A stretch of DNA of 64,000 bases from Hyphomicrobiales bacterium (GTDB lineage: Bacteria > Pseudomonadota > Alphaproteobacteria > Rhizobiales > MH13), in the NCBI GenBank assembly GCA_017642935.1, contig JAEPOK010000002.1, positions 124,001 through 188,000 of the forward strand. Direction: 5' to 3'. The notes beneath the pieces were generated by a model. The model did no database searches, was not told where the DNA came from, and saw only the letters and a list, made by a program, of their open reading frames with translations. Made by a program: the position numbers and the translations under genes. This document shows positions 3,029 to 15,189 of the stretch, one piece after another (positions within the stretch are counted from its first letter, which is position 1; each line of letters opens with the position of its first letter).

Positions 3029-3856
3029 TCACGATCGGCGGAAGACCACGGATCCCAACCATCCGGTGAACAGGGCCAGGACCACAGCAAGACCGCCATA
3101 CATCAGTTGATCACGCTGGGACATGCGGAAGATGAACTGTTCGAACCCCGTCTTGCGCACCAGAATGCCCACACGCTCCTCGGCGAGCAAGACGCCACCG
3201 GAAAACAGGTAGACATTCACGTCAAAAAGGCCAAGCGGCACGTCGGCGGGAAAGGTGGCGCGGGCACGGAACAGCGTGTTGTCGATGACGGCGACCGCGT
3301 TGGGATCTTCCTGATAGACGCGCGCTTCGCGTTGCAGCCGCAAAAACGCCCGCTCGAAAACCCGTGGATCGATCCCTTCGGTTTCCGGCGCGTCTGCCTG
3401 GCTGTCATTTTCGCCTTGGCTGTCATTATCGGTGGACACGGCATTGTCGTCCTCCTCTTCGGGCGACAAAACCTGCTCGATACCGATCTGAAACCGGCGG
3501 AGCAGCGAGGAATGCGCGATCTCCGAAACCGGCCGATTGGAAAGCACCGTGTAGGCGCTGGGCACGCCCTCAAAGGTGCGCGCGCGGGTGTTCACCCAAA
3601 CACCCAAAACCCGTTCCTTCAGACGCGTCACACGATCTGATTGCGGGCCGGTGACCGTCACAACGACATCATAGTCGGACGCCCGGGGCACAGTCGCCGC
3701 GTCACGGCGCACCGCGCCAAACACGGTGATCGCTGAGCCGGTGAAGTTGGAGGTGATATCGACCGTGCGCTCCGACAGCGTCACGATGAGCGATTCTGCC
3801 CGCACTGGTAGAGCGACCAGAAATGTCAGCAGGAGGATCAGAGCTATCCGCATCAT
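3029..3856 (-). CDS. TIGR02186 family periplasmic/membrane-anchored protein
   Basis: A 275-residue protein with an N-terminal signal peptide (residues 1-20, ending ALPVRA), an extracytoplasmic beta-rich body beginning with the family-typical stretch around ITVFGAVRRDA, and one C-terminal membrane segment (about 248-268) followed by a short RRS tail. A very acidic insert lies near residues 126-155. The family (Alph_Pro_TM) is restricted to alphaproteobacteria and typically sits beside a TauE/SafE anion permease, as here: its ATG overlaps the permease stop by four bases (ATGA), so the two are probably translationally coupled. An accessory role in export of sulfite or another organosulfur product is a context inference only. 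Confidence 0.87.
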   Translation of the reverse strand: MMRIALILLLTFLVALPVRAESLIVTLSERTVDITSNFTGSAITVFGAVRRDAATVPRASDYDVVVTVTGPQSDRVTRLKERVLGVWVNTRARTFEGVPSAYTVLSNRPVSEIAHSSLLRRFQIGIEQVLSPEEEDDNAVSTDNDSQGENDSQADAPETEGIDPRVFERAFLRLQREARVYQEDPNAVAVIDNTLFRARATFPADVPLGLFDVNVYLFSGGVLLAEERVGILVRKTGFEQFIFRMSQRDQLMYGGLAVVLALFTGWLGSVVFRRS

Positions 3857-4773
3857 CCGCCGATCTCCGTCACGGAGAAGAGTTCTGCCGGTTCGATGGC
3901 CAGATCAAACAGGAACCTCGCGCCGACTGACAGGATCAGCAGCGCCAGCAGCAAACGCAATTGTTCGCCTTTCAGCTTTTGCCCCGCCGAGGCACCGAAC
4001 TGCGCGCCAAGCACCCCACCAACCATCAAGATCAATCCCAGGATGATATCGACGGACCCGGTGGTCAATGCGTGCAGCACGGTGGCGACTGCCATCGTCA
4101 CCAGAATCTGCACCAGCGAGGTGCCGATCACCACATTGCCAGGAACCCGCAGGAGATAAATCAGCGCTGGCACCATGATAAAGCCACCGCCAATGCCAAG
4201 AATGGCGCCCGCGAAACCAATCAGCAGCCCCAGCGTGACAACTGGAATGACAGAGATATAGAGACGAGATTTCTTGAAAGCCGTCTTCAGCGGCAGCCCG
4301 TGCACCCAGGTATGCTGACCGGGTTTGCGGTTCGACACCGCCCGACCGCGTGCGCCGCGCCAGACCGAGCGCGCGCTTTCGAAAAACATCATGCCGCCAA
4401 TCGTGCCCAAAAACAGCATGTAGGAGACGGAAATAATGAGATCGAGCTGGCCGAGGGCGCGCAAAATCGAAAACAGCCAAACGCCGAGTGAAGAGCCGAT
4501 GACGCCGCCGCATAAGAGGACGCCGGCCAATTTGAAATCGACGCCGCCTTTGCGCCAATAGCTCAACACACCGGAGGTTGAGGAGGCAACAACCTGGCTG
4601 GTCACTGTGGCCACAGCAACGGACGGCGGAATGCCGGAAAAAATGAGAAGCGGCGTCAGCAAGAACCCGCCGCCCACTCCAAAAAGACCCGAGACGAAAC
4701 CCACCGCGCCGCCCATGCCCAGAATGAGGAACACGTTGACGGCCAATTCGGCAATGGGCAGATAAATCTGCAT
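3853..4773 (-). CDS. Sulfite exporter TauE/SafE family permease
   Basis: A 306-residue inner membrane permease with the internal duplication of the TauE/SafE family: the glycine-rich signature appears twice, as GLFGVGGGFLLTP near residue 29 and as AILGIGGGFIMVP near residue 191, each followed by several hydrophobic helices (about eight or nine in total). A charged cytoplasmic loop of about 30 residues (near 135-165) separates the halves. Family members export sulfite, sulfoacetate or related anions; the substrate here cannot be read from the sequence. It heads the operon with the TIGR02186 and DUF3429 genes. A 7-bp inverted repeat lies 74-98 bases upstream of the ATG. Confidence 0.88.
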   Translation of the reverse strand: MQIYLPIAELAVNVFLILGMGGAVGFVSGLFGVGGGFLLTPLLIFSGIPPSVAVATVTSQVVASSTSGVLSYWRKGGVDFKLAGVLLCGGVIGSSLGVWLFSILRALGQLDLIISVSYMLFLGTIGGMMFFESARSVWRGARGRAVSNRKPGQHTWVHGLPLKTAFKKSRLYISVIPVVTLGLLIGFAGAILGIGGGFIMVPALIYLLRVPGNVVIGTSLVQILVTMAVATVLHALTTGSVDIILGLILMVGGVLGAQFGASAGQKLKGEQLRLLLALLILSVGARFLFDLAIEPAELFSVTEIGG

Positions 4774-4953: not shown

Positions 4954-5607
4954 CTAAAGGCTACGGCCCTGTCGCAGGGCATCCAAGAGCGCCTGGTCGA
5001 TGGTATCAGAGTCACCAAGCCCGACCGATTGGCGGAAGGCACGCACCGCTTCGTTGGTTCTCGGACCGAGCAAACCGTCTGCTGGACCTGGATTATAGCC
5101 GCGTTCAGCCAGCAGCGCCTGTGCTTCTGCGATGAGGCGCTGCGTCGGTGTCGCGCTGGCGCTTTCGGCTGAATCATCCCAGCCACCGGCTGGACCTTGA
5201 ACGGCAACTGCCGCGGTTTCCACCGGAACGGGCCGCCAATTATCGACCCGGGCACGCGCGAGCGCCAATGCTTGCTCGCCCAACACGCCGGCAACCTCAT
5301 CACGGCGCGCGACGGCTTCATTGTCGCCGGCGTTGGCGGCAAGGGCGAACCATTTGTAGGACTCCATCAGATCGCGTTCGACCCCCATGCCGCGCGCATA
5401 AAGAACGGCAAGGTTGAACTGGCTATCAGCTAGGCCGCGATTGGCGGCGGGAATGAACCAACCGGCGGCGCGGGCGAAGTCAGGCGCTTGTCCGCCACCT
5501 TCGGCGGCCATGACCGCCAGATTGTGCATCGCGCGAGGATTACCGCCAAGTGCCGCGCGCTCGTACCAAGCGATGGCGCCGTTGCGATCTCGATCGACGC
5601 CGCGACC
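4954..5607 (-). pseudogene. Detached C-terminal part of the PodJ-like protein (Sel1 repeats and peptidoglycan-binding domain after an in-frame TAG)
   Basis: This stretch is in exactly the same frame as the gene that ends with TAG at 5608-5610 and has no other stop until 4954. It begins in the middle of a Sel1 repeat (GRGVDRDRNGAIAWYERAA), continues with two further Sel1-type repeats (AMHNLAVM..., SQFNLAVLYARGMGVERD), and ends with a PG_binding_1 domain (motif RGYNPGPADGLLGPRTNEA) that is a natural C-terminus for this family. Without readthrough it would not be exported, because the membrane anchor is in the upstream part; an internal ATG at 5529 could only give a cytosolic fragment of 191 residues. 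It could be a decayed end, a strain-level mutation or a base-call error. Confidence 0.75.
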
Positions 5608-8600
5608 CTATTCGTAGAAGCTTCCTAGACGATAAGCCGCCGGGATGACGCCCTGGTCTGCAGCGCGGCCATACCAATGGGCGGCAGCGCCTAGATCCTG
5701 CGACACGAAGCGGCCTTCCATGAACCGCGTAGCTATTTCGAACGCAGCGGTAGGGTCACCGCTGGCAGCAGCGACACGCAGTCGAGGCGAGCCAATCGCT
5801 TCAGGCAATGCATCAGCGGTTGCCGCCGGTAGCGATGGCGTCGGGAGGTTGAGTAGAGGCCCGAGATCGTTGGCTGGTGGGGGTAGCGCTGACTCCTGCG
5901 ACGCGATTTGCGGCGCCGTTGGCTCCGGACCATCTTGAATGGCGGCGAGCTCGTCTGTTGCAGCTTCGGCCAATTGGGGTGTTTCGGCCATAACAGGGCC
6001 ACGATCGCGCTCAAAGCCGCTGCCGACGACGCCGTCGCGCGCCAGGCTGTCTTCTGAGACACGTGGTGAATCGGCAGCCAGTTCAGACCCGGCTAGCGTG
6101 CTTGCGTCCGCAGCGCTATCGGCGTCTTCAGTTTGTGACGGCTCTGCCGGCAGGACATCATCGCTGGTCGCTAAGCTTGCGCCCTCACCCACGGCGCGCA
6201 CTGATTCTTCCGGCGCGGCGCTCACATCAGCGTCCGAGCCATCGGAGACGGGTGCTTCAGCGGGTGCGATCGGCGCGATCACCGTGTCGGCAGCGCGGTC
6301 GCCCGGCATGATCAGATTGACGACAAAAAGACCAAGGCCAAGGGTGAAGAGCACCAGGGCAAACAGCATAGCGCGGGAAAGCACGCGCTGGCGTTTCTCA
6401 TCCTTTGCCTTGCGCTCGGTTTGCTGCTTGCGCGCGGTTTTAGCTGCACCACCCAGGGCGTTCATCGGATTGTCTGTTGGGTCGGCGGCGGGGGTGGTCG
6501 GTGAGGATGCCGGCTCGTTCAACGCTGGTTTGTCTAGCCCAGGCTCAATCCGAGCGTCGTCCTGCTGACGACCTCTCGAGCCTGCCAGGTTGGGGCCCGA
6601 CATGGTGTCTGCGCCGCCGGATCCCTGCGGTGCAGCACCCACTGATGATCCGCCGCCAGCTTGCAGGGCTGCAGCCTGCGCAGCGCGGCGCGCGGCGGCG
6701 ATGAAGCTTGCACGCTGATTGGCGGTGTCACCTTGGGCGTTGGCGTCCTGGGATCCCGTAGCTGCCGACTTGGCGCGACGCGACGTGCGGGCCGGACGTT
6801 GCGGGGCCGCATTGATGGCGCCTGAAAGCTGACGCAGCAGCGTTTGCGCATCGCCGGGCGCCGGGATCACGTCGGGCGCGTCAGCCTCTTCAGCCTTGTC
6901 GTCTGCGAACTCATCGTTCGACGCGTCGCTGCTCGCGGCCATCGAGGATAGGTCAAGCGGCGGAAGCTCATCTTTTTCCGGAAGGCTTCCCTTTGGCAGG
7001 AGATCATCAAGTGGCGAAACTGTCTGAGCGGGTCGCGCGTCAGCTTCAGTCTCTACCGGTTGCGGCTCTTGTGCCGACTCCGACGGCCGGTCGAAGGCAT
7101 GCGCCATCTCTTCCAATGATGGCTGAGGCTTGGGTGCTGGCGTTTCAACCGTCGCCTTTTCGGCAAGGTGGCGCGCGGCCAGATCGTCCGTCTCCAACGC
7201 ATCGATACGGCCGATGACCGTTTCCAACGCGCCTTGAACGCTTTCCAGCGTGTCCAGCATGCGCTGGTCCTGGTCGCTGGCGTGTTCGCGCAGGGCAACC
7301 AGTTCGCCTTGCAGCGCCTGCATACCCAACGCGTCTTGCGTTTCAGCCTGCGGGTCGAACAAGCCCAACGACTGAACGCGGTTGGCAAGATCGTTTATCT
7401 CGCTCTCGATCTCTGGCAGGATCCCGGCATCGCCGGTGGACCGCGCGGTGTCGAAGCGGGCCGCCAGATGCCGGACCTGATCAACAATGGCGCGCTGCAA
7501 ATCGCGATTGGAGCCCAGTTCGACGCTGGCGCGGGCGCGGGCAAGTTCTGCGTGCAAACGGTTCACATCATCGCGGGAGATGATGCCGGCCTCTGAATGG
7601 CGCTTGTTAAGCTCAACCAACTGGCTTTCCAGCGAGGCCAGAGCAACATCAGCCAGCGGCGTTGGCATTGCCTGGATAAGACCTTCCAGGCGGTTGGACA
7701 TATGATCGATCAACGGTGCATCGGCGGCTGAAATCGCACGCTGAATGCCGTCCAAGCGCTCATCAACGGTATCAAGACGGGAAGCCAGGGGGTCGATGGT
7801 GCTCGACAGACGGCTGTCGATCTTCGCTTCGACCGCCTCGATAATCGCCTCGGTCTTGGGAATGGATTTCAGGCAGGACTCGACCCGCTCGCCAAGCTCG
7901 CGCACGGCCATGCCAAGCCGCGCTGTGCCATCATCTTCCTGCAAGGCGGTGACGCGGCCGGTCAAGTCGAGCAAGGCATGCTCAATCTCGCGCACCGGCA
8001 TCGTCGAGCTGAAGCTATCCATCTGGCGCGAGAGCGCAGCAACCTCACGCGCCATATCCGATTGATTGGCAAGACGATCATCGAGCGCGTTCAGCCGTTC
8101 CGACAGGCCAGCAACCTGCGCGGCATAGCTCCCGGTCATCTCTTCAATGCGATCGAGCGCGGAGAAGCGTTGATCGATGCCGGCTATATCAATGGCAGGT
8201 GCGGCGTTGCGCATCTCTTCGCGGATCGTATCCAGCGCGCTCGTCAAACCACGGGCTTCGTCCTGGAAGGTGGAAAGACGCGCCATCTCCGTTTGGATGG
8301 CATCCAGACGCTGGGTGACCGCGCTGTCGTCGGCGCCGCTCGCCAAGGCTTCGATGCGCGCTTCGAGCGCGACCAGGCGCTCAACAACCGCACCGATCGC
8401 TTCGTTGACGACGTTCGGCTCCTGCGCCGCGTTTGCTGCCATCGCCTTGACGCTTTCCAGCGCCTCGGTGATGCGATCGGCACCATTGTGGGGGTCGTTT
8501 TCCAATTGCGCGATCATTGAGCGCATTTCGCCGACCAACGCGCCGGTGTTGTTCTCGCTAAGGTTGTCCAGCACCTCACGCAAGCTGGTGACCTCGCCAT

Positions 8601-9546
8601 AAAGCGCGTCGATTTTTTCATCATGCGCGCCGACATCTTTCAACGTGTCGAGGCGGGAGAGAACGTGGCGATAGCCGTCTTCCAGAGACTGGATCGCCTC
8701 GGGTTTCGGCATTGCCGCAATTGTATCCTGAACAGCGCGGATCTGATCGCTGAGCTGCGCCAGATCGGGTCCAGTGACCACTTGCGGTGTGTCAGTGGCG
8801 GTTGCGGACGATGAACCATTGTCAACGCGCGCCTGGAGTGCGGCCACCTGTTGATGGAGCCCGGCTTGTTCGGCAGCGCTCGATTCGGCGATGGATCGAA
8901 CGTCAACGACTGCGTCGGTCAAACGGGAAAACTGTTCATCCAGTCGGCTGATGAGTTGGTCCAATCCCGACGACTCGGCAGGTGGGGCAGGTTCTGGCGA
9001 CGTCGCGCTGGGCTCTGGAACATGGACCGGATGCTCTGGCACTGCAGGCGGGGCGGCGGGTTCGGGCGCAGCCTGCGGGGGTGCGGCGGGGGGTTCCATC
9101 GGTGCAGGAGCCGCATCGGGCACATGCCCGTGCTCGAGCTCATGTTTGCGGCGGCGCAAAGCCTCCAATGGATCAAAGGCCCGCTGCGGGCTTGGCACTG
9201 AGGCTTGTTTAGCGGTCGTAGCCGCCACGGGTGCAGGCGCAGCCGATCCACCCGAAACTTTAGATTCAAGCGTCTCGATATTCTTGGCGATGGCGGCAAG
9301 GCGCGACTGGAGATCGTGAGCGGGCTCGGCTGCTCGCGCTCGGCTCTGCGGTTGCTGGGGCGATGCGGCGGCGGGCGCCAGCGATGCCTGGGGATCTGGT
9401 GCCTGCTGTCCAAGCACGTTTTGCATCCATTCACCGACAGTTGGCTGTGCGGCGTGAACTGCTGCGCCATGCGAGGTCGTCTGACCTGTGCCATGGTCGG
9501 TTCGATGAGTGGGTTGTTGCCACGTGTTTTGGGACTGTTGAGCCAT
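5608..9546 (-). CDS. PodJ-like polarity/peptidoglycan-associated protein, truncated by TAG within a Sel1 repeat
   Basis: A 1312-residue protein. Residues 1-200 are rich in Pro, Ala and Gln and look disordered; about 200-850 is a long series of heptad-like coiled-coil blocks with recurring ALDDRL/RLDTVDERL-type segments; 850-1055 is acidic then basic low-complexity; one membrane segment spans about 1060-1080 after a basic RKAKDEKRQR stretch; the rest is periplasmic, ending in Sel1 repeats from about 1250. This is the layout of PodJ of Caulobacter and rhizobia: cytoplasmic coiled coil for polar protein recruitment, one membrane pass, periplasmic Sel1 plus peptidoglycan-binding end. The reading frame stops at a TAG where the repeat expects a K/Q residue (YE-stop-GRGV); the intact form would be about 1530 residues. 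The start ATG has only a weak ribosome-binding site. Confidence 0.85.
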   Translation of the reverse strand: MAQQSQNTWQQPTHRTDHGTGQTTSHGAAVHAAQPTVGEWMQNVLGQQAPDPQASLAPAAASPQQPQSRARAAEPAHDLQSRLAAIAKNIETLESKVSGGSAAPAPVAATTAKQASVPSPQRAFDPLEALRRRKHELEHGHVPDAAPAPMEPPAAPPQAAPEPAAPPAVPEHPVHVPEPSATSPEPAPPAESSGLDQLISRLDEQFSRLTDAVVDVRSIAESSAAEQAGLHQQVAALQARVDNGSSSATATDTPQVVTGPDLAQLSDQIRAVQDTIAAMPKPEAIQSLEDGYRHVLSRLDTLKDVGAHDEKIDALYGEVTSLREVLDNLSENNTGALVGEMRSMIAQLENDPHNGADRITEALESVKAMAANAAQEPNVVNEAIGAVVERLVALEARIEALASGADDSAVTQRLDAIQTEMARLSTFQDEARGLTSALDTIREEMRNAAPAIDIAGIDQRFSALDRIEEMTGSYAAQVAGLSERLNALDDRLANQSDMAREVAALSRQMDSFSSTMPVREIEHALLDLTGRVTALQEDDGTARLGMAVRELGERVESCLKSIPKTEAIIEAVEAKIDSRLSSTIDPLASRLDTVDERLDGIQRAISAADAPLIDHMSNRLEGLIQAMPTPLADVALASLESQLVELNKRHSEAGIISRDDVNRLHAELARARASVELGSNRDLQRAIVDQVRHLAARFDTARSTGDAGILPEIESEINDLANRVQSLGLFDPQAETQDALGMQALQGELVALREHASDQDQRMLDTLESVQGALETVIGRIDALETDDLAARHLAEKATVETPAPKPQPSLEEMAHAFDRPSESAQEPQPVETEADARPAQTVSPLDDLLPKGSLPEKDELPPLDLSSMAASSDASNDEFADDKAEEADAPDVIPAPGDAQTLLRQLSGAINAAPQRPARTSRRAKSAATGSQDANAQGDTANQRASFIAAARRAAQAAALQAGGGSSVGAAPQGSGGADTMSGPNLAGSRGRQQDDARIEPGLDKPALNEPASSPTTPAADPTDNPMNALGGAAKTARKQQTERKAKDEKRQRVLSRAMLFALVLFTLGLGLFVVNLIMPGDRAADTVIAPIAPAEAPVSDGSDADVSAAPEESVRAVGEGASLATSDDVLPAEPSQTEDADSAADASTLAGSELAADSPRVSEDSLARDGVVGSGFERDRGPVMAETPQLAEAATDELAAIQDGPEPTAPQIASQESALPPPANDLGPLLNLPTPSLPAATADALPEAIGSPRLRVAAASGDPTAAFEIATRFMEGRFVSQDLGAAAHWYGRAADQGVIPAAYRLGSFYE

Positions 9547-11156: not shown

Positions 11157-12473
11157 ATGTTCCATTCATTCTTTCCCAAACCGAAGCTGTTTTTCCTGTC
11201 CTTTGCGATCTACGCCATCGTGATGGTAGTGCTTTGGCAGGTCGCCGGCGACAGGCTGCAATTCCTGTCACTTGGACCGGTCTTTGGCGTGGAAAACGCG
11301 GCTACGGTTGAACCTGGTATTGCGCCGGACGTCGAACTGCCCGGCAGCGAAGCGGTCGCCACGCAAGAGGCGGACGCAGGGTGGGCCGACCCACAGACCT
11401 TCTGGTTCTACCAGTATATGCTCACATCCATCGCGCTGTTTGTCGGCTTTTGGATGTGGTACGCGCCGCATCCCTGGCAGCTGTGGTCGGTCGCCGGCTC
11501 GGCGCTCATCTTCTTCACCAACTGGTTCCTGGTGCAACTGGATGTGATGATCAATGAGTGGTTCGGGGGATTTTACGACCTGATCCAGCAGGCCTTGGCC
11601 GAACCCGGATCGATTGACGGGCGCGACTATTATCTCGGCATCGCCACCTTCCTTCAAATCGCACTGGTCTACGTTTTTGTGGCGGTGATGTTCCGCTTTT
11701 TCGTCAGCCACTATGTGTTCCGCTGGCGCACAGCGATGAACAATTACTACACCAGCATGTGGAAGCGGGTGCGCAAGATCGAAGGTGCATCGCAACGGGT
11801 GCAGGAAGACACGATGCGCTTTGCGTCGATCACCGAGAGCCTTGGTGTCGCGCTGCTTGACTCGGTGATGACGTTGATCGCCTTCCTGCCGTTGCTGTGG
11901 GGTCTCTCAGCGGCGGTGACCGAACTGCCACTCATTGGCGAAGTGAGCCAAGGGCTGGTGTTTGTGGCGATCGTCTGGTCGATCTTGGGAACGGCTCTGC
12001 TGGCGGTGGTGGGCATCAGACTGCCCGGCCTGGAGTTCAACAATCAGAAGGTGGAAGCCGCCTACCGAAAAGAACTCGTCATGGGCGAGGATTTTGTTGA
12101 ACGTGCGCAGCCGCAGTCGCTGACTGAGTTGTTTTCCGATGTGCGGCGCAATTATTTCCGGCTCTATTTCAACTACATGTACTTCAATGTGGTGCGGATT
12201 TTCTATCTCCAGATCGGCAATCTGGTGCCATTCATTGCGCTGGGTCCGACCATCATTGCGGGCACCATCACTCTTGGCACCATGCAGCAGATCATGCGCG
12301 CATTTAACCGGGTTGAAGGCTCGTTCCAGTACCTGGTGAACTCCTGGACCACGATTGTGGAACTGATGTCGGTCTACAAGCGCCTCAACGCCTTTGAGAA
12401 GGCCGCGCTGGCTACACCAGAATCCGGCCCAGAGACAGGAAGCGGCACCAAGGTTCCCTCGCCCGCCGAGTAG
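11157..12473 (+). CDS. bacA: SbmA/BacA-like peptide transporter
   Basis: A 438-residue inner membrane protein of the SbmA/BacA family, homologous to the membrane half of ABC exporters but without an ATPase. It imports antimicrobial peptides, microcins and bleomycin driven by the proton gradient, and in rhizobia and brucellae BacA is needed for chronic host infection. The family pattern is visible: FWMWYAPHPWQLW, the helix with FVSHYVFRWRTAMNNYY, the motif ASQRVQEDTMRF near residue 215, and the C-terminal helix GTMQQIMRAFNRVEGSF. About seven to eight membrane segments. At residues 45-75 there is a periplasmic insert rich in Glu and Ala. The 32-residue tail after the last helix is Pro/Ser-rich. 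It precedes the ligase-associated exonuclease. Confidence 0.92.
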   Translation: MFHSFFPKPKLFFLSFAIYAIVMVVLWQVAGDRLQFLSLGPVFGVENAATVEPGIAPDVELPGSEAVATQEADAGWADPQTFWFYQYMLTSIALFVGFWMWYAPHPWQLWSVAGSALIFFTNWFLVQLDVMINEWFGGFYDLIQQALAEPGSIDGRDYYLGIATFLQIALVYVFVAVMFRFFVSHYVFRWRTAMNNYYTSMWKRVRKIEGASQRVQEDTMRFASITESLGVALLDSVMTLIAFLPLLWGLSAAVTELPLIGEVSQGLVFVAIVWSILGTALLAVVGIRLPGLEFNNQKVEAAYRKELVMGEDFVERAQPQSLTELFSDVRRNYFRLYFNYMYFNVVRIFYLQIGNLVPFIALGPTIIAGTITLGTMQQIMRAFNRVEGSFQYLVNSWTTIVELMSVYKRLNAFEKAALATPESGPETGSGTKVPSPAE

Positions 12474-12511
12474 GCGCTTGGAATAGGCCAATCTTGACCC
12501 ACATTGTGGGC

Positions 12512-13549
12512 ATGATCACCCGCGCTGACCAGTTCATGACCATTCGCCCGGAAGGCCTCTATTGCATTCCGGGCGATTTCTATGTCGATCCAGTGCGCCC
12601 CGTGCACCGCGCCGTTATCACCCACGGACATGCCGACCATGCACGCCCTGGCCATGGGTCGGTATTGGCAACAGCCGAAACCCTGATGATCATGGCGGTG
12701 CGCTATGGCGCCGATTTCGCCGGACGAACGCAAAGCGCAGACCTTGGTGACGTGATCACGCTTGGCGATACACGGGTGAGCCTTCATCCGGCCGGCCATG
12801 TGCTTGGTTCAGCGCAGATACTGGTAGAGCATGGTGGCCATAGGCTGGTGGCCTCGGGTGACTACAAACGTCATGCCGACCCCACTGTGATGCCGTTTGA
12901 AGTGGTGCCTTGCGACACCTTCATCACAGAAGCGACGTTTGGGCTGCCGGTGTTCCGCCATCCGCCCGGCGCGGATGAAGTGGCAAAGCTTCTCACCTCG
13001 CTCGCGACGTTTCCGGACACGCCGCATCTGGTTGGCGCCTATTCACTGGGCAAAGCCCAACGGGTGATCGCCGAGGTCCGCGCGGCGGGCTATGATGCAC
13101 CGATCTACCTGCACGGCGCGATGGAAAAGCTCTGCGCATTTTACCAAAGCCAAGGCATCGACCTTGGCGACCTGACGCCTGTTGCGGGCTTGAAGGCGAA
13201 AGATATGGCCGGGAAGATCGTGCTTTGCCCACCCGGCTCCATGGCCGATCGCTGGTCGCAAAAATTCGGCGAGACAATCACCTGTTTCGCTTCGGGTTGG
13301 ATGCGGGTGCGTGCCCGTGCCCGGCAACGCGGCGTGGAACTTCCACTCGTGATGTCGGACCATGCCGACTGGGATGATCTCTGCGCGACAATCCTCGACA
13401 CCGGAGCGTCGGAAATCTGGGTGACGCACGGCCAAGAAGACGGACTGGTGCATTGGTGCGGAACGCAAGGCATCGACGCCCGCCCGCTCAACATGATCGG
13501 CTATGGCGACGAAGGCGATGAGGCCGCTGTGCAGGAGAGCGCGGCGTGA
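12512..13549 (+). CDS. Ligase-associated DNA exonuclease (metallo-beta-lactamase/beta-CASP fold)
   Basis: A 345-residue metallo-beta-lactamase-fold nuclease. The metal-binding motif THGHADHARPGH lies near residue 38, followed by HPAGHVLGSAQI, the ASGDYKRHADPT block that supplies the next aspartate, and late conserved blocks GWMRVRARAR and MSDHADWDDL. It is the exonuclease partner of the ATP-dependent ligase whose GTG start overlaps its stop by four bases (GTGA). The usual family N-terminus has about 15 residues before GLYC; the ATG at 12512 fits that, while a TTG at 12494 would add six residues and an ATG at 12536 would remove eight. No good ribosome-binding site decides between them. Confidence 0.9.
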   Translation: MITRADQFMTIRPEGLYCIPGDFYVDPVRPVHRAVITHGHADHARPGHGSVLATAETLMIMAVRYGADFAGRTQSADLGDVITLGDTRVSLHPAGHVLGSAQILVEHGGHRLVASGDYKRHADPTVMPFEVVPCDTFITEATFGLPVFRHPPGADEVAKLLTSLATFPDTPHLVGAYSLGKAQRVIAEVRAAGYDAPIYLHGAMEKLCAFYQSQGIDLGDLTPVAGLKAKDMAGKIVLCPPGSMADRWSQKFGETITCFASGWMRVRARARQRGVELPLVMSDHADWDDLCATILDTGASEIWVTHGQEDGLVHWCGTQGIDARPLNMIGYGDEGDEAAVQESAA

Positions 13550-15189
13550 AAGCCTTCGCCGAGCTTCTCGACCGCCTGGCCTATGAGCCGCGCCGCAATG
13601 GCAAACTGCGGATGTTGGTGCAGTATTTCAGCGCAACGCCCGATCCCGAACGCGGCCTTGCGCTTGCGGCCATCACCGGTGGACTTGACTTCAAGAACGC
13701 CAAACCAGCGCTCATTCGCGGGCTGGTGGAAGCGCGCACCGACCCGGTGCTCTTCCGACTTTCCTACGATTATGTGGGCGATATGTCGGAGACCGTGGCT
13801 CTCCTCTGGCCTGCTGATCACGGGATAAACAGCCCGCCTCCAACTCTAGAAGATGTCGTTGATGCGCTGGCAACAACGGGCAAAGCAGAGATGCCGGCGC
13901 TGATCACTCGCTGGCTCGACACGCTGGACGAAACGGGCCGCTGGGCGCTGTTGAAGCTGATCACCGGCGGTCTTCGCATCGGGGTGTCGGCTCGCCTGGC
14001 CAAGACGGCCGTCGCTGGCCTCGGCGACCTGAAACCCAATGACGTTGAAGAAGTCTGGCACGGCCTGTTGCCGCCCTACCAAAGCTTGTTTGCTTGGGCG
14101 GAAGGCAAGGGCGAGCGCCCAGAGAATGACGACCCTGCGCCGTTTGCACCCGCAATGCTTGCGCATCCTATTGAGGATGGTGATTTCGAAAAGCTGGAAG
14201 CCAGCGAGTTTCTGGCCGAATGGAAATGGGATGGCATCCGTGTGCAGGCAGCCAGCGGGATGGGCAAAGATGGCCAGCTGGTCCGACGGCTTTATTCGCG
14301 CACTGGTGATGATATCTCGCGTGCCTTTCCCGATCTCGTGGAGGCTCTACCCGAGAACGCGACTCTGGATGGTGAGTTGCTGGTGCTGATCGATGGCCGC
14401 GTTCAGACCTTCAACACGCTGCAACAACGCCTCAACCGCAAGACCGTGTCAAAGAAGCTATTAGAGAGTCATCCGGCCCATATGCGGGTCTATGACGTGC
14501 TGAGACTTGGTGGCCAAGACCTTCGGCCTCTGCCATTTGTTGAAAGGCGCTCGCGCCTTCAGGCGCTTGTTGATGAGCATGATCATCCGCGCCTCGATCT
14601 CTCTCCGATGGTAGCATTCGAGGATTGGCACACCCTTGAGGACGCGCGCGCTGACCCTGCCAGTCATGGGGCAGAGGGCGATGCCGATGCTGTCGAAGGG
14701 GTGATGATCAAACGCATCGACAGCGCCTATGTGCCCGGACGTCCGAAGGGCCCTTGGTGGAAATGGAAACGCGATCCGATGTTGATCGACGCTGTGCTGA
14801 TGTACGCGCAGCGCGGTCACGGCAAGCGCTCAAGCCTTTATTCCGACTACACGTTCGGTGTCTGGAAACCTGGCGAGGATGGCAGGATGCTCGTGCCGGT
14901 CGGCAAAGCTTATTTTGGCTTCACCGATGAGGAGTTGAAGAAGATCGACAGTTTCGTGCGCAAGTACACCGTCAACCGGTTCGGGCCGGTGCGTGAGGTG
15001 ATCCATGGCGAGGATGCCGGCATGGTGTTCGAGGTCGCCTTTGAAGGGCTGCAACGCTCCACCCGGCACAAGAGCGGTGTGGCCATGCGCTTCCCGCGCA
15101 TCTCTCGGCTTCGCTGGGACAAGCCACCGCGCGAAGCCGACACGCTGGAAACGGTGATGGCGCTGCTGCCGGAAAGCGAACGGAGCTGA
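13546..15189 (+). CDS. ATP-dependent DNA ligase (ligase-associated repair set)
   Basis: A 547-residue ATP-dependent DNA ligase of the bacterial LigB/ligase-C-unrelated type that travels with exonuclease, Lhr-type helicase and PdeM. Order: N-terminal DNA-binding domain (1-200), adenylation domain with catalytic lysine in EWKWDGIRVQ near residue 227, motif III LDGELLV near 280, motif IV EGVMIKR near 387, motif V GPWWKWKRDP near 405, then an OB-fold domain (about 420-540). It seals nicks with ATP as adenylate donor and is an addition to the essential NAD-dependent LigA. The gene starts with GTG and overlaps the exonuclease by four bases, so the two are translationally coupled. Confidence 0.93.
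   Translation: MKAFAELLDRLAYEPRRNGKLRMLVQYFSATPDPERGLALAAITGGLDFKNAKPALIRGLVEARTDPVLFRLSYDYVGDMSETVALLWPADHGINSPPPTLEDVVDALATTGKAEMPALITRWLDTLDETGRWALLKLITGGLRIGVSARLAKTAVAGLGDLKPNDVEEVWHGLLPPYQSLFAWAEGKGERPENDDPAPFAPAMLAHPIEDGDFEKLEASEFLAEWKWDGIRVQAASGMGKDGQLVRRLYSRTGDDISRAFPDLVEALPENATLDGELLVLIDGRVQTFNTLQQRLNRKTVSKKLLESHPAHMRVYDVLRLGGQDLRPLPFVERRSRLQALVDEHDHPRLDLSPMVAFEDWHTLEDARADPASHGAEGDADAVEGVMIKRIDSAYVPGRPKGPWWKWKRDPMLIDAVLMYAQRGHGKRSSLYSDYTFGVWKPGEDGRMLVPVGKAYFGFTDEELKKIDSFVRKYTVNRFGPVREVIHGEDAGMVFEVAFEGLQRSTRHKSGVAMRFPRISRLRWDKPPREADTLETVMALLPESERS

Follow-up and report, generated by a model that had tools for sequence, protein, structure and literature searches.

An in-frame TAG codon within a periplasmic Sel1 repeat of a podJ-like gene from a Hyphomicrobiales bacterium, probably a recent nonsense mutation

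The closest described system is PodJ of Caulobacter, which exists as a long form, PodJL (residues 1-974), and a proteolytic short form, PodJS (residues 1-702 of 974) (PMC8980812). Pilus biogenesis in Caulobacter is modulated by the periplasmic region of the protein, which is not needed for polar localisation (PMC9684454); when this region is lost the CtrA pathway is lowered, and the short form does not stimulate PleC (PMC8980812). A second point of comparison is provided by conserved bacterial in-frame stops under downstream constraint, which are common to at least two species (Belinky et al., 2021; PMC7918605).

The window analysed here, a stretch of 64,000 nucleotides (positions 124,001 to 188,000 of contig JAEPOK010000002.1, assembly GCA_017642935.1), carries a podJ-like gene on the minus strand which, read through an internal TAG, occupies 9546-4954 (-). 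Its predicted product resembles Caulobacter PodJ in the order of its parts, with a long cytoplasmic N-terminal part, one membrane segment, a linker, four periplasmic Sel1/TPR-like repeats and a C-terminal peptidoglycan-binding domain (PG_binding_1), and in that a tail-less form is possible. The region preceding the membrane segment is charged and helix-like and draws coiled-coil Pfam models, these matches standing in place of a dedicated coiled-coil prediction. The name PodJ-like was assigned from this architecture and from orthology within the order rather than from alignment to the named Caulobacter protein, and on that footing the identity proposed in the first-pass annotation is sound. Both Sel1 and PG_binding_1 exceed their Pfam cut-offs when the gene is translated through the stop, as they do in the congener G002. 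Coordinates of all features are collected in Table 1.

Table 1. Features of the podJ-like gene, in coordinates of the window
Feature	Coordinates	Strand	Basis or remark
PodJ-like coding sequence before the internal stop, residues 1-1312	5611..9546	-	
Single predicted membrane segment, approximately residues 1058-1080, preceded by KRQR	6307..6375	-	Strongly hydrophobic; inferred from hydropathy
Sel1 repeat 1, residues 1266-1299	5650..5751	-	Pfam PF08238
Sel1 repeat 2, residues 1302-1336, with the stop inside	5539..5643	-	Pfam PF08238
Internal TAG, codon 1313	5608..5610	-	CAG in both congeners covering the site
Open continuation, 217 codons	4957..5607	-	Conserved among relatives
Sel1 repeat 3, approximate limits	5431..5535	-	Inferred from spacing; the downstream piece contains three stretches matching Sel1
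Sel1 repeat 4, residues 1373-1408	5323..5430	-	Pfam PF08238
PG_binding_1 domain, residues 1472-1521	4984..5133	-	Pfam PF01471
Terminal TAG	4954..4956	-	podJ of G002 and of G003 likewise ends in TAG

The open reading frame 9546-5608 (-) comprises 1312 codons and is terminated by TAG at 5610-5608, such that codon 1313 breaks off the second of the four Sel1 repeats at YE-stop-GRGV. Beyond it the same frame runs on for 217 sense codons until the TAG at 4956-4954 and, searched alone, this downstream piece matches Sel1 in three stretches as well as PG_binding_1. Codon usage of the downstream frame is that of the podJ-like gene itself (log-odds of +0.34 per codon versus at most +0.12 in the other five frames) and the continuation aligns residue by residue with relatives, which excludes an open frame arisen by chance. 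The first-pass annotation had described an in-frame TAG inside a Sel1 repeat, followed by 217 open codons that complete repeat 2 and add two more repeats and a peptidoglycan-binding domain; the open reading frame and the Pfam matches bear out its coordinates as well as its domain reading. No further stops or frameshifts were found in the 217 downstream codons and this, with the constraint described below, rules out a decaying pseudogene. Translational restart past the stop was also considered and rejected: the first ATG lies 26 codons on (5529), and its product would be without a membrane or export segment.

Of the order's 297 genomes, 243 carry an orthologue of the gene. CAG occupies the codon in question in both congeners whose sequence spans it, G002 (83% identical across the final 300 residues; its contig is the same as that of the MAG Cohaesibacteraceae bacterium PL25a_bin.105) and G003 (71% over the same span), in agreement with the single CAG to TAG substitution suggested at first pass. 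In a further 28 orthologous genomes the codon mostly specifies lysine or arginine, with one histidine and one methionine, and thus the comparison with close relatives that the first-pass annotation had proposed returned a sense codon in 30 of 30 aligned genomes and a stop in none. Since the relatives carry a sense codon, the stop is, on this alignment, a derived state found in the present genome only. The podJ of a third congener, G001, might be mistaken for a tail-less gene; it simply runs off the end of a contig and gives no reading of the codon. Stops were also flagged in orthologues from other families and, where these could be placed, they are natural ends near query position 231-246, before PG_binding. 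The orthologues concerned (L036, L034, L147-L151 and L153-L155) keep the whole Sel1 block and end at approximately 231-246. To judge from these proteins, some families of the order have lost, or never acquired, the wall-binding end.

Constraint on the tail was assessed using a codon alignment of the present genome with G002, G003 and G004. Downstream of the stop the present branch has seven amino-acid changes of its own versus 12 on that of G002, with a low omega and no relaxation, and letting the final 2% of the branch evolve neutrally cost the model 4.9 lnL units; with synonymous sites close to saturated and one branch length at its bound, absolute branch lengths are unreliable. A bound independent of branch lengths comes from the 68 downstream columns that are invariant in six relatives, none of which has changed in the present genome, giving a neutral divergence since the stop of at most ~0.02 per site (95%). 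Among 109 columns invariant in three relatives there was one change (E to Q). If real, the stop is by this measure younger than ~2% neutral divergence, which is the scale of differences between strains. The same observations bear on whether the truncation could be old and established, the species having long made do with a short protein whose tail is a relic. In several families of the order the orthologues naturally have no PG_binding domain, as such a history would allow; those proteins nevertheless keep their Sel1 block, and neither the unchanged 68 columns nor the cost of even 2% neutral evolution fits a relic. Barring expression of the tail by some other route, the constraint on it refutes an old truncation as far as these alignments go, and we regard that explanation as highly improbable.

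An intact tail is expected equally from a sequence error, in which a wrong base call, a fault in consensus or assembly, or a minority allele carried into the consensus of a mixed population has placed a stop in a gene that is in reality whole. The tail shows no decay whatever, the predicted periplasmic domain is conserved throughout and, among the orthologues listed for the order, the sole stop shown inside the Sel1 block is that of the present window, all of which count in favour of such an error. Against it, we compared the surrounding 444 kb (~12% of the genome) with 460 kb of the congener G003, using a local-identity filter that recovered podJ as a positive control, and in those 444 kb podJ was the only genuine gene with an internal in-frame stop. 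Inspection of a further 12 genes flagged at first as interrupted placed their stops upstream of the real start codon, at the gene end or in shadow ORFs, such as those antisense to frames that we read as permease-like and methylglyoxal-synthase-like. Since no other genuine gene is interrupted in this region the assembly is not generally error-ridden, and its 17 contigs and 0.01% contamination likewise speak against poor assembly in general. A single wrong base at the stop is compatible with a generally sound assembly, and we therefore keep sequence error as the main rival, a possible if rather doubtful account.

Whether TAG could be read as sense was assessed from the terminators of 120 reciprocal full-length orthologues, which were TAG in 44, TAA in 39 and TGA in 37. 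TAG is hence the commonest terminator here (44/120 versus 31/120 in G003) despite a region of ~60% G+C. The one indication of genome-wide amber reassignment or of a dedicated suppressor tRNA is the in-frame TAG itself. Set against this, TAG ends podJ as well as those 44 genes, RF1 is present over its curated cut-off, no other genuine gene in the 444 kb is interrupted by TAG, and a genome-wide search for the amber suppressor tRNA raised in the first-pass annotation returned none with anticodon CTA among the 41 tRNA genes over the cut-off, an unassembled tRNA gene being a formal gap. On these counts the genome does not recode TAG, and reassignment or dedicated suppression is barely credible. The tRNA-Ile (GAT) and tRNA-Ala (TGC) were not found in the tRNA set of the genome, and probably lie in rRNA operons absent from the assembly.

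Selected readthrough, in which near-cognate tRNAs would decode UAG at some rate so that truncated and full-length PodJ are both made, could draw on the retained downstream constraint and on the UAG being followed by G, a comparatively leaky context in E. coli, where mean UAG readthrough in minimal medium is nevertheless <1% (PMC11126739). The case also resembles the in-frame stops of Belinky et al. (2021) (PMC7918605) in having TAG in place of CAG and purifying selection downstream. Those stops, however, are shared between species, whilst a conserved readthrough stop, looked for as a stop at the same site in the 30 aligned genomes, was absent; here the stop is in a single genome and the constraint needs no explanation beyond the youth of the stop. 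The RNA that follows it has no unusual structure (z -0.46), and no suppressor tRNA was among the tRNA genes found. With nothing specific speaking for it, selected readthrough appears distinctly improbable, and somewhat less probable again is that a leaky UAG, with a selection-kept ratio of truncated to full-length PodJ, does at translation what Caulobacter does by proteolysis in making its short and long forms.

We favour, with a probability of roughly 0.6, a nonsense mutation of very recent date, a C-to-T change that turned CAG into TAG in a single lineage of the species, possibly only in the sequenced strain or population, and truncates the periplasmic tail. It is consistent with CAG in both covering congeners and a sense codon in all aligned genomes, with a tail that is intact and constrained up to the present, with TAG as an ordinary terminator in a genome that has RF1 and in which no CTA anticodon was found, and with the rarity of errors in the scanned assembly; moreover, tail-less PodJ is tolerated in Caulobacter and is still polar (PMC9684454, PMC8980812). 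Weighing against a nonsense mutation are that sequence error predicts the same full constraint, that the stop is known from one genome of the species and from its assembly only, and that among the orthologues listed no other has a stop in the Sel1 block, such alleles seeming not to persist. The options listed in the first-pass annotation (a true loss, a strain polymorphism, amber readthrough or a sequencing error) were sound and are narrowed by the comparison to a derived stop and a tail that is not decaying, with neither a suppressor tRNA nor reassignment; simple decay, which it had also named, does not agree with the 68 retained columns and unrelaxed omega.

As regards expression, stability and phenotype, the consequences of a nonsense mutation are predictions. 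Ribosomes would halt at codon 1313, and the product would keep the cytoplasmic part, the membrane segment, the periplasmic linker and the first Sel1 repeat, and lose the remainder of repeat 2, repeats 3-4 and the domain that binds the wall; what is left of repeat 2 would probably be trimmed in the periplasm. If Caulobacter is a guide, the cytoplasmic part would still localise to the pole, such that the truncated protein may mark it, and functions dependent on the tail (PleC/CtrA signalling and pili) would drop. The likeness to PodJS drawn at first pass is weak, since PodJS is a cell-cycle product of proteolytic cleavage close to the membrane, shortly after the membrane segment, whereas here the second Sel1 repeat is broken by a stop codon in one genome and the product would retain ~230 periplasmic residues that include all of Sel1 repeat 1 and part of repeat 2. 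Nor is there support for a short form inherited as a settled trait, given that nothing in the missing part points to its having been dispensable. If real, the stop gives a naturally truncated polarity scaffold and with it a probe of the periplasmic Sel1/wall-binding tail outside Caulobacter, and if an error, a caution for gene annotation; in either event the case is an ordinary one and introduces no new mechanism.

Several neighbouring genes were also noted. Directly downstream of podJ, at 3029-4773 (-), lie a TIGR02186-family gene and a permease-like gene, the latter adjoining podJ also in G002, G003 and G004. A gene of the SbmA/BacA peptide-transporter type, above the NCBIfam cut-off, is found at 11157-12473 (+). 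Four 'ligase-associated DNA damage response' genes at 20-2534 and 12494-15189 (+) form two pairs ~10 kb apart, a DEXH helicase with PdeM and an exonuclease with an ATP-dependent ligase, between which are situated the podJ region and other genes.
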